Positions 25,473 to 27,971 of a DNA stretch of 35,765 bases are shown one piece after another. Position numbers and translations under genes: made by a program. The stretch's first letter is position 1, and each line of letters opens with the position of its first letter. Source of the DNA: a virus; the IMG/VR virus record IMGVR_UViG_3300007734_000626, positions 1 to 35,765 of that record. One strand, given 5' to 3'. The notes below the pieces were generated by a model, which had not been told where the DNA came from, ran no database searches, and was given only the letters and a program-made list of their open reading frames with translations.

Positions 25473-25699
25473 CACCACAACAAAAAAGTAAGGATTTAAT
25501 TAATTCATTCTATTACTCACTACCAAACAACGGAAGCGAAACGGGATTAAATAGTACTACTGAACGATATAAAGAAGCTATACAATGTGCATTGATTGCA
25601 GTTGATGAAATAATCAATCATCATTCACAAGAACAAGGATTGTATAGAATTGATACATATTATTGGCAACAAGTCAAGTCGGAGTTGCAGTCTTTGTAA
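25469..25699 (+). CDS. Conserved small phage protein, unknown function
   Basis: A 76-residue protein with KSKDLINSFYYSLPN, ERYKEAIQCALIAVDEIINH and a closing YYWQQVKSELQSL. I recognise this composition (CALIAVDEII, YWxxVK) from small proteins of Bacteroidetes phages. No function known. Its stop at 25699 is the last base of the normal phage backbone before the cassette-like region begins at about 25704. Confidence 0.65.
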   Translation: MTPQQKSKDLINSFYYSLPNNGSETGLNSTTERYKEAIQCALIAVDEIINHHSQEQGLYRIDTYYWQQVKSELQSL

Positions 25700-25703
25700 G
25701 GTT

Positions 25704-25731
25704 GCGTATAACGTTTTGCAACTTGGCTTAG
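25704..25731 (+). repeat. TAACG-type boundary site 1
   Basis: GCGTATAACGTTTTGCAACT and onwards to TTAG. It is alignable with 26037-26064 and 26887-26914: shared GCnnnTAACGkTT and a CTT/GCT block. It starts 4 nt after the last backbone gene and precedes the 86-residue ORF. Confidence 0.6.
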
Positions 25732-25773
25732 TGCCGAAATTAACAGATAAACTAATTTAATAAAGATAAAATT

Positions 25774-26034
25774 ATGAGTACAGAAAATAGTTTTGAAGAA
25801 CACAATGATAAGGCATTGAGCCAAGATGCTGTTAGTTGCCGTTTTATTAGTGGTTTTCAAGATACAAGAACAAATAAAGAGGATTTCGCTTTAACACCTT
25901 ATTTATTTGGAGTATGGGTTAGTGAAAAATCTAAAGTTCGTGGATTTGGTATTTGTTGGGGTTATTACTCTATTTTTGTAGCGTTAGGTTTTAATATACC
26001 TAAAAATTACCCGATATTTAGAGTTATTAAGTAA
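25774..26034 (+). CDS. Orphan small protein in cassette-like region
   Basis: An 86-residue protein (MSTENSFEEHNDKALSQDAV at the N-terminus; an aromatic-rich end with RGFGICWGYYSIFVALGFN). No family recognised. It lies between boundary sites 1 and 2, with a 60-nt A/T-rich leader ending AAAATTATG. Codon and GC use are visibly different from the neighbouring backbone genes. It reads like a single-gene cassette picked up from elsewhere. Confidence 0.5.
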   Translation: MSTENSFEEHNDKALSQDAVSCRFISGFQDTRTNKEDFALTPYLFGVWVSEKSKVRGFGICWGYYSIFVALGFNIPKNYPIFRVIK

Positions 26035-26036
26035 TG

Positions 26037-26145
26037 GCAACTAACGGTTGGGGCTTAACGAAGTTTTTTGCCTTGCTCAAATGTTCAAATCAAGGCATAA
26101 TGCTTATAGGCAAAAAATTTTGTTTAAGCCCTTGTTATAAGCTGT
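26037..26145 (+). repeat. attC-like long imperfect hairpin (boundary site 2)
   Basis: From CTAACGG at 26041 to GTTATAA at 26134-26140 the sequence can fold on itself. Arms GGGCTTAACGAAG plus TTTTTTGCC (26051-26072) and GGCAAAAAATTTTG plus TTTAAGCCC (26109-26131) pair with a few mismatches and one bulge, and GCCTTG (26070-26075)/CAAGGC (26091-26096) offers an inner stem. Outer TAAC/GTTA bounds 97 nt apart recall integron attC sites, though the R boxes are not canonical. It directly follows the stop of the 86-residue ORF, as attC does in a cassette. Confidence 0.55.
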
Positions 26146-26200
26146 TTAAAAAAAGAAAAAAGAGGGGAGATTTTTTTATTAAATTTTTTAAGTTTTAAAA
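26134..26200 (+). repeat. Left inverted repeat flanking the methyltransferase
   Basis: Two blocks. The outer one (26134-26161) reads GTTATAAGC, then TTT, A7, G, A6; the inner one (26171-26200) reads T7-ATTAAA-T6 and so on to the A of the start codon. The inner 30 bases are an exact reverse complement of 26827-26856, and the outer 28 match 26869-26896 with two differences. Confidence 0.9.
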
Positions 26201-26832
26201 TGGATTTACGGAATATAGATTGTATGATAATGATGAAGGAGTTTCCCGACAAATATTTTGATTTGGCAATAGTTGACCCACCCTATGGAATTGGAATTGA
26301 CGGACAAAAAGAAAGTATTTGTAAGAACCCGAAACACAATAGAAAGGCACACGAACACAAAGGGTGGGATAATGCAATACCGACTGCTGAATATTTTAGG
26401 GAACTTGAAAGGGTGAGTAAGAACCAAATTATTTGGGGTGCAAACTACTTTGTTGAACACCTGAACAAAGGCACGAAAGGTTGGATATTTTGGTATAAAG
26501 GACAGGAAGGATTAACTATGAGTGATGGCGAACTTGCTTACAGTAGCTTTCAAGTTGCAACACGAATGATAAATTTGAATAGGGGATTGATTGCTCAAAA
26601 AGGTGGGAGCATACACCCGACACAAAAGCCAGTTGAATTATACAGGCATTTACTACACAATTACGCAGAGAAAGGACAAAAGATATTAGACACACATTTA
26701 GGAAGCGGAAGTATTGCGATTGCCTGTTACGATATGGGATGCGAATTAACGGCAAGTGAGATTGATAAAGAGTATTTTGATAATGCAACGAAAAGGATAA
26801 ATGAACACACGATGCAAACCTTTTTATTTTAA
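26200..26832 (+). CDS. Orphan DNA methyltransferase (N6-adenine/N4-cytosine, beta type)
   Basis: A 210-residue enzyme. The catalytic motif DPPYGIG is at 26-32, HPTQKP at 139-144, and the SAM-binding DTHLGSGS at 164-171. The order (catalytic site first, SAM site last) is that of class beta methyltransferases. The target domain between them is short, so specificity cannot be read. There is no partner restriction gene, so it probably protects phage DNA from host enzymes or changes expression. It is flanked by about 70-bp inverted repeats and lies in the cassette-like region, signs that it moved in as a unit. Its codon use fits its flanks less than the phage backbone. Confidence 0.9.
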   Translation: MDLRNIDCMIMMKEFPDKYFDLAIVDPPYGIGIDGQKESICKNPKHNRKAHEHKGWDNAIPTAEYFRELERVSKNQIIWGANYFVEHLNKGTKGWIFWYKGQEGLTMSDGELAYSSFQVATRMINLNRGLIAQKGGSIHPTQKPVELYRHLLHNYAEKGQKILDTHLGSGSIAIACYDMGCELTASEIDKEYFDNATKRINEHTMQTFLF

Positions 26833-26896
26833 AACTTAAAAAATTTAATAAAAAAATGTGCGGTGGCTTTTTTTCTTTTTTTAAATTGCTTATAAC
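26827..26896 (+). repeat. Right inverted repeat flanking the methyltransferase
   Basis: Inverse of 26134-26200. It begins inside the last codons of the gene (26827), has a central non-matching TGTGCGGTGGC, and ends GCTTATAAC at 26896, which runs directly into boundary site 3 (TAACG at 26893-26897). Confidence 0.9.
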
Positions 26897-26914
26897 GGTT
26901 TGCAGCTATGCGTA
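26887..26914 (+). repeat. TAACG-type boundary site 3
   Basis: TGCTTATAACGGTTTGCAGC followed by TATGCGTAG. It aligns with site 1 (25704) through the next 40 bases, including a shared GATAAACT before each following ORF, and with the left arm of site 2. Confidence 0.6.
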
Positions 26915-26953
26915 GTTGCGGTAAATTAATGATAAACTTAAATTTAAATACAA

Positions 26954-27205
26954 ATGAATACAGACAGAATTAAAGAGATACAATTAGAAACAGCTTACCC
27001 TGAAAGTGTAAGTGTGCAACAAGCTTTACTGAAAGTTTGGAATGAAACGGAACAAGAGCAATTACGCATAACTGCTGTTAGTGGGCGAAGCGAACAGTTT
27101 ATTTCTTTGATTAGAGAATTGATAAACGTAGGCATAATTGATGAAGATGATATAGAAGTAGAAACTTGGGTAAAAAACTATCTCAAAGAAATAAATTGCC
27201 ACTAA
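26954..27205 (+). CDS. Orphan small protein in cassette-like region
   Basis: An 83-residue helical protein (MNTDRIKEIQLETAYPESVS, VQQALLKVWNETEQEQ, FISLIRELINVGIIDEDDIE). No family recognised. Its leader is related to that of the 86-residue ORF at 25774 (same site and GATAAACT-type stretch), so both belong to the same sort of unit. After the stop at 27205 comes CTAATGGCTAACCGCCA, a fourth similar boundary. Confidence 0.5.
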   Translation: MNTDRIKEIQLETAYPESVSVQQALLKVWNETEQEQLRITAVSGRSEQFISLIRELINVGIIDEDDIEVETWVKNYLKEINCH

Positions 27206-27220
27206 CTAATGGCTAACCGC

Positions 27221-27245
27221 CATAAACTAAACTAAACAAGACTAA
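27221..27245 (+). repeat. Repeated leader, copy 1
   Basis: CATAAACTAAAC then TAAACAAGACTAA. It matches 27480-27503 apart from one inserted base. A third, partial copy starts at 27272. Confidence 0.8.
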
Positions 27246-27253
27246 GACCTAAT

Positions 27254-27271
27254 GTTCACGAATGCGTGAAC
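27254..27271 (+). other. Perfect hairpin between leader copies
   Basis: GTTCACG-AATG-CGTGAAC: a 7-bp stem and 4-nt loop. No T run follows, so this is more likely an operator-like palindrome or RNA processing signal than a terminator. Confidence 0.7.
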
Positions 27272-27298
27272 ACTAAACAAACAAGACTAATGAAAATA
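27272..27298 (+). repeat. 27-bp direct repeat including a start codon, copy A
   Basis: The 27 bases from ACTAAACAAACAAGACTAAT to GAAAATA are identical to 27485-27511. In this copy the shared ATG (27290-27292) leads to a stop after three codons, and the real ORF starts 8 nt further on. Confidence 0.9.
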
Positions 27299-27484: not shown

Positions 27485-27511
27485 ACTAAACAAACAAGAC
27501 TAATGAAAATA
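27485..27511 (+). repeat. 27-bp direct repeat including a start codon, copy B
   Basis: Identical to 27272-27298. In this copy the ATG (27503) is the start of the 55-residue ORF. Confidence 0.9.
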
Positions 27512-27674: not shown

Positions 27675-27971
27675 ATGACAACCGAAGAACAAAAGCAGCA
27701 CATCACTAACTTTTTCAAGCGACAAAGGGAGATTCTAACAAGCAAAGGTAATGACTATGCAAATGAGGATAGACTATCTAATTTTAAGTTAGCAGGTACT
27801 ATCTGTCAGTTATCACCGGAACAGAATTGTCTATCGTTAATTGCTACGAAAGTCGCACGATTAGGTGTATTATTGAATGGTCAGATACCATCAAACGAAA
27901 GTATTAAAGATTCTATTATTGACCTGGCAAATTATTGTGTACTTTTGGATGAACTAATTGAGGATAAATGA
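27675..27971 (+). CDS. DUF1599-like (nucleotide modification associated) protein
   Basis: A 98-residue protein with KGNDYANEDRLSNFKLAG, LIATKVARLGVLLNGQIPSN and ESIKDSIIDLANYCVLLDEL. This Lys-Gly-x-Asp-Tyr ... Asn-Phe-Lys, Lys-x-x-Arg and Asp-x-x-Asp-x-x-x-Tyr pattern is that of DUF1599-type proteins, a MazG-related helical fold seen in phages and thought to be linked to nucleotide metabolism. The substrate is unknown. It overlaps the next gene by 4 nt (ATGA). Confidence 0.65.
   Translation: MTTEEQKQHITNFFKRQREILTSKGNDYANEDRLSNFKLAGTICQLSPEQNCLSLIATKVARLGVLLNGQIPSNESIKDSIIDLANYCVLLDELIEDK

Follow-up and report, generated by a model that had tools for sequence, protein, structure and literature searches.

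A putative integron-like cassette array without integrase in a phage genome and related sites in Bacteroidota

Array of the window

The window, that is, the whole stretch of DNA that was analysed (35,765 nt), is a virus record of 35.8 kb in which portal, terminase and primase/helicase-like genes are present. Three units, with an 86-aa orphan ORF, a DNA methyltransferase and an 83-aa ORF, are located between the stop codon of a phage gene (25699) and small phage genes beyond 27290, the array spanning positions 25709-27206 (Table 1). The body of each unit is preceded by a hairpin of the form TAACG...TGTTA. The three hairpins were recognized, all on the + strand, by R1, a home-made covariance model built only from bacterial (chromosomal) sites, whose E-values are rough, and they were recovered by an anchored scan in which hairpins were sought between TAAC and GTTA. 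A cassette-like island with attC-like sites, as proposed at this place by a first-pass annotation, is thus confirmed. The annotation had also described a hairpin at site 2, whose self-pairing indeed exceeds chance, only 1 of 200 shuffles folding equally well; sites 1 and 3, which it had not described as hairpins, are hairpins too, with right arms lying within the following ORFs (25812-25834 and 27062-27080). Hence, the start codons of ORF 1 (25774) and ORF 3 (26954) lie in the loops of the respective hairpins.

Table 1. Features of the array in the window. R1, covariance model of bacterial sites (rough E-values); ↓, predicted joining point.
Feature	Position	Strand	Evidence or remark
Left edge of array	25697-25711	+	Box GGTTGCGTATAA after the stop codon of a phage gene; sequence
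Predicted crossover TAA↓C	25711/25712	+	Tandem duplication in locus L105 and phage edges
attC-like hairpin 1, 126 nt, loop with start of ORF 1	25709-25834	+	R1 63.6 bits, E 7e-16; anchored hairpin scan
Cassette 1 (hairpin and following gene)	25712-26044	+	Complementary boxes GTTAGTTGCC/GGCAACTAAC, 25831-25840 and 26036-26045, 10 nt
ORF 1, 86 aa, orphan	25774-26034	+	Start inside hairpin 1, read through right arm; no Pfam match
attC-like hairpin 2, 96 nt	26042-26137	+	R1 43.2 bits, E 9e-10; fold z = -3.0
Cassette 2, with DNA methyltransferase	26045-26895	+	Complementary boxes GTTATAAGC/GCTTATAAC, 26134-26142 and 26888-26896, 9 nt
Left copy, extended inverted repeat of cassette 2	26134-26201		Partner 26826-26896; 86% over ~70 nt
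N6/N4 DNA methyltransferase, 210 aa	26200-26832	+	PF01555 3.6e-15; phrog_67 1.1e-36
Right copy, extended inverted repeat of cassette 2	26826-26896		Partner 26134-26201; 86% over ~70 nt
attC-like hairpin 3, 188 nt, long loop with start of ORF 3	26893-27080	+	R1 59.3 bits, E 1.5e-14
Cassette 3	26896-27205	+	Complementary boxes GTTAGTGG/CCACTAAC, 27077-27084 and 27199-27206, 8 nt
ORF 3, 83 aa	26954-27205	+	Start inside hairpin 3; stop codon provided by TAA in the closing box (TAAC)
Right edge, TAAC followed by TAATGGCTAACCGCCATAA	27203-27225	+	Common to L005, L007, L043 and L052, last cassettes different

The boxes at the two ends of a cassette are complementary to each other across the gene in 3/3 window cassettes. 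Each hairpin belongs with the gene downstream and not with the one that ends ahead of it, so that the first-pass description of attC sites placed behind their cassette genes has to be reversed: in the phage, attC is located 5' of its own gene. The fourth, weaker site suspected at 27203 did not hold either, since it has no hairpin and corresponds to the closing R box joined to a right edge common to five phage lineages. A search of the region against Rfam gave nothing above threshold.

As to the cargo, the protein of cassette 1 gave no match in 345 Bacteroidota genomes, in a search that had no positive control. The N-terminal third of ORF 3 shows 76% DNA identity to an attC-less phage gene (L008:5098-5201). 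Relatives of the methyltransferase are found outside any cassette in other phages, window positions 26244-26788 being 85% identical in DNA to L009:791-1335 and 78% identical to L036:11101-11640; therefore, genes seem to move between cassette and plain phage context. The window methyltransferase may serve a counter-restriction role.

A PF00589 search of the whole window record, which is possibly incomplete, found no tyrosine recombinase, in agreement with the earlier remark that no integrase is visible in this phage. CALINs are defined by at least two attC sites with no integrase nearby; here there are three sites, assigned to attC with reservations, and no PF00589 match. Being devoid of a recombinase, the window would hold a CALIN-like array, probably loaded in trans.

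The slot in related phages

Thirty-eight viral loci were retrieved through the neighbouring gene 27675-27971. The slot is empty in L006, is filled with ordinary genes in L008 and contains other cassettes in L005, L007, L043 and L052. The outcome that the annotation had named as adverse to it, relatives all carrying the same three genes, is hence not what was found: they carry other cassettes or none. The left edge, ending in AAGCTTGCCACTAAC, is common to L005, L007 and L052, and the right edge to five lineages including the window, while the hairpins and genes between both edges differ. Among the relatives, the cargo comprises C5 and N6/N4 methyltransferases and, in the L052:8914-9249 cassette, a Tad2-like anti-Thoeris protein (PF11195, 5.5e-19). 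No tyrosine recombinase was found in the related phage loci examined, which are fragments.

The slot is accompanied by a 20-nt leader, ACTAAACAAACAAGACTAAT(G), located ahead of each swappable gene of the phage family. It is found in the window at 27272-27291 and 27485-27504, and in degenerate form at 27226, with five further copies in L008, three in L010, and others in L005, L007 and L052, where two copies flank the array. The leader encodes the end of the preceding gene (..LNKQD) and a stop-start TAATG. It would represent a second, phage-level modularity, reminiscent of the leader modules that are mobile in T4-type phages. A palindrome, GTTCACGAATGCGTGAAC or a close variant, is located directly before the leader (window 27255-27272, L009:22-40, L010:3305-3325) and is possibly a regulatory site. 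By inspection of the sequence, a tRNA-like stretch (L008:6303-6420) is positioned between two conserved genes of the related phage.

Sites and recombinases of Bacteroidota chromosomes

When a bacterial genome collection was scanned once with a loosely defined site pattern, 34 loci were obtained, almost exclusively from Bacteroidota. They contain arrays of hairpins whose lengths are clustered at 124-128 nt. In 54 aligned sites the 24-pair structure has 94.3% of its cells paired, versus 72.6% after shuffling, and double changes amount to 238 versus 72, a value reached by 0/500 shuffles; sliding the arms abolishes the pairing signal. As in integrons, the sites are imperfect hairpins in which the structure is kept rather than the sequence, the covariation being beyond all shuffles and slides. 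R1 matches occur in 112 of 198 Bacteroidota genomes evenly drawn and, leaving aside the starting genome, in 2/95 Patescibacteria. When one chromosomal site was compared by BLASTN with the genomes of isolated phages, there was no match.

A further integron trait is that the two ends of a cassette are complementary, R'' with its own R': complementarity of at least 8 nt was found in 44/47 adjacent site pairs, versus 6.8% of the non-adjacent ones. The boxes themselves depart from integrons, GTTRRRY and RYYYAAC being fitted by 4/62 and 1/62 sites, respectively, as the annotation had anticipated on noting that the R boxes of the window fall off the strict consensus. The limits of the unit are disclosed by L105, in which 945 nt are tandemly duplicated; the hairpins of the copies are 99.2% identical and the bodies 100%, while the next hairpin is only 66% identical and the sequence ahead of the first TAAC is unrelated. 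A homologous cassette in L107 and L074 has the same start and end points. The unit is therefore delimited by TAA↓C on one side and by the next TAA on the other, which is also the case in integrons.

A tyrosine recombinase of ~350-480 aa adjoins many chromosomal arrays. The IntI-specific insert of the catalytic domain, which integron integrases carry, is absent in all 14 aligned Bacteroidota recombinases and present in a true IntI (L116). Most array-linked Bacteroidota recombinases have an extra N-terminal domain, with a weak likeness to DUF5710 (6/11 members, best 4.6e-4) and a non-significant one to HARP; an AlphaFold model computed from a single recombinase sequence was unusable (pLDDT 38). 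Against TIGR02249 the array-linked recombinases score about 193-215 bits, with a cut-off of 265. The main array-linked clade, IntI and Xer form separate, fully supported groups in a tree of 59 rows, in which part of the array-linked recombinases are not members of that main clade. Sites near recombinases are all on one strand per locus, with the recombinase on the opposite strand, beyond the array end, in 23/25 loci. A terminal box was found in 22/23 chromosomal loci, mostly at 67-103 nt from the recombinase stop in the main type, and is followed by a conserved TYGTwTATATG-like motif; box and motif constitute, from their sequence, a candidate attI. Hence, the chromosomes have an attI-like edge next to the recombinase at which the array starts, a trait that the window, having no recombinase, lacks. 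The right edge of the phage arrays is unlike the chromosomal attI. All 24 genomes with the strongest recombinase matches have sites (Fisher 6e-7).

The surmise of a captured cassette array, possibly belonging to another cassette system, is thus supported, the same sites being found between different single genes in related phages and in many Bacteroidota chromosomes, and beside a recombinase. The expected vicinity of an IntI was borne out in part: a recombinase does adjoin the arrays, but it is not a canonical IntI. IntI genes over the TIGR02249 cut-off were detected in 57/198 evenly drawn Bacteroidota genomes, which is more than the literature cited here suggests.

Orientation, movement and relation to known systems

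In bacterial contigs the classical order of integrons, with attC 3' of the gene, is found in 66/75 cassettes, the other 9/75 being reversed, whereas in viral contigs, window included, attC lies 5' of the gene in 97/105 cassettes (Fisher 7e-30, cassettes of one contig being non-independent). An arrangement in which chromosomal genes face the recombinase and cassettes are inverted was considered and dropped, because a count of ORF strands gave the opposite. ORFs starting within their own hairpin account for 39/102 viral ORFs when ATG starts only are considered, usually 60-80 nt in; cassette 3 of the window is counted among them, and cassette 1 is read likewise from its sequence. Many viral cassette ORFs stop at the TAA of the next box. 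Near-identical hairpins precede unrelated genes in L189 and L282, so that proteins of these contigs have a common attC-encoded start such as MIDRITEQPFCQTR. Different methyltransferase families in L189 and L282 show the same attC-encoded N-terminal peptide, M-D-ITEQPFCQTR, the hairpin being joined in frame.

Viral contigs L189, L184, L182 and L186 contain an array followed, on the same strand, by a simple recombinase of ~270 aa. The terminal box is located 20-52 nt ahead of the recombinase start in the first three, and in L186 a box was found 1.6 kb from the recombinase. The recombinase type with the N-terminal domain was found in none of the viral contigs, the best viral matches being 42-47% identical and covering the core only. 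Many of these contigs are metagenomic fragments and their viral labels are those of IMG/VR; a terminase was detected by one profile in 7/24 array-bearing viral records tested.

Matches to the bacterial model, covariation, box complementarity, turnover of cargo and linkage to a recombinase argue together for an integron-like reading. To judge from the sequence, the island, which occupies a single slot in the early operon of the phage, is very probably a three-cassette, integrase-less CALIN-like array of a Bacteroidota integron-like system, with reversed genes and its recombinase in trans. Its unit would extend from TAA↓CG to the next and comprise an attC-like hairpin, whose arms pair when single-stranded, and the gene that follows. 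A tyrosine recombinase, donated most likely by the Bacteroidota host, would bind the folded site and join cassettes at TAA↓C (G↓TTA on the other strand), by which the phage would gain or lose single genes, for instance the methyltransferase. With genes reversed relative to attC, each gene would have the hairpin as its 5' leader; in cassettes 1 and 3 the hairpin would also provide the beginning of the gene. We infer that the sites fold in the cell, that the recombinase acts in trans and that the cassettes are expressed. A shared cassette pool appears to serve the phage as a source of genes, in this case of a DNA methyltransferase. There is, moreover, a reasonable though lesser likelihood that Bacteroidota phages have their own variant of the integron, consisting of a simple recombinase that lacks the IntI insert and of cassettes that are reversed and self-starting, and fed by an overlooked Bacteroidota-wide non-IntI integron system. 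Single genes (methyltransferases, the Tad2-like protein) would then be swapped in complete, and unrelated proteins would gain the same attC-encoded N-terminus.

The array could instead have been loaded by a recombinase once encoded in this phage lineage, since lost or lying outside the record, rather than by that of the host. The reversed arrays of L189, L184 and L182, ending shortly before their own simple recombinase, would agree with such an origin, and so would the reversed orientation that viral arrays have in common, unlike the chromosomal ones, but with neither the window nor the related loci examined, which are fragments, yielding a tyrosine recombinase it is doubtful. That a canonical host IntI of the TIGR02249 type moves ordinary integron cassettes is unlikely, despite the number of genomes that have one and the finding that a variety of attC sites from phages can be recombined by IntI1 (Qi et al. 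2023, PMC9892861): the presence of IntI is not associated with that of sites (27/57 versus 85/141, p 0.11), the short loci in which IntI genes were checked yielded no site around them, the array-side recombinase belongs to a separate clade lacking the IntI insert, and the boxes misfit the consensus.

Two further explanations are still less probable. Ordinary module exchange by homologous recombination at repeated leaders, with the hairpins acting as terminators or regulators, would suit the leader that stands ahead of swappable genes and the two copies enclosing the array in L005, L007 and L052; it is nevertheless very improbable, as it leaves unexplained the covarying arms, the boxes complementary across genes, the sites in many bacterial genera and the linkage to a recombinase. 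The two mechanisms may also coexist, with the leader operating on the slot and attC on the cassettes. It is hardly credible that the methyltransferase alone is a transposon-like unit delimited by its ~70-nt inverted ends, because those ends terminate in the R boxes belonging to hairpins 2 and 3, there is no transposase, and cassettes 1 and 3 show the same arrangement of boxes with no long inverted ends.

CALINs that include methyltransferases have been described before in virulent phages, e.g., Polaribacter phage P12002L, and IntI1 recombined 5/6 of the sites tested (Qi et al. 2023, PMC9892861). The window is like them in having attC-type sites without an integrase and DNA methyltransferase cargo; it differs in that its boxes are non-canonical, its genes are reversed and its sites are members of a family that is found in Bacteroidota and is associated with a recombinase other than IntI. 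No site of the window type was found in P12002L. The main Bacteroidota clade resembles the Treponema integrons (PMC3607928) in that the recombinase gene is read toward attI and has the same direction as the cassette genes; gene followed by attC and a recombination boundary at the R' box are shared as well. However, Treponema has an IntI, while the Bacteroidota recombinase lacks the insert and has the extra N-terminal domain. NF040815 (site-specific tyrosine recombinase/integron integrase, recomb_XerA_Arch) ranks first or second among the families matched by the array-linked recombinases that were tested, at 197-226 bits, scores that straddle its cut-off of 220, and the N-terminal domain lies outside the model.

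The IntI insert has been described as essential for integron function (PMC8138268), and taxon-specific attC models include no Bacteroidetes (PMC8352920). Complete integrons are reported to be very rare in Bacteroidetes (IntegronFinder 2.0, PMC9024848), a rarity that contrasts with the presence of the sites in over half of the evenly drawn Bacteroidota genomes. No description of a Bacteroidota platform with a non-IntI recombinase, or of reversed, self-starting phage cassettes, was found in the searchable literature, a body outside which most subscription journals and preprints fall. If active, the system would be a second way, at the protein level, of recombining single-stranded cassettes; it would also imply a large and hidden reservoir of cassettes and enable phages to acquire counter-defence genes directly. 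In the VCR arrays of the Vibrio superintegron, near-identical hairpins likewise stand beside unrelated genes, within and between arrays. The viral hairpins differ from VCRs in being located 5' of the gene and in often encoding its first residues. Near-identical hairpins on unrelated genes bear on the question of the origin of cassettes.
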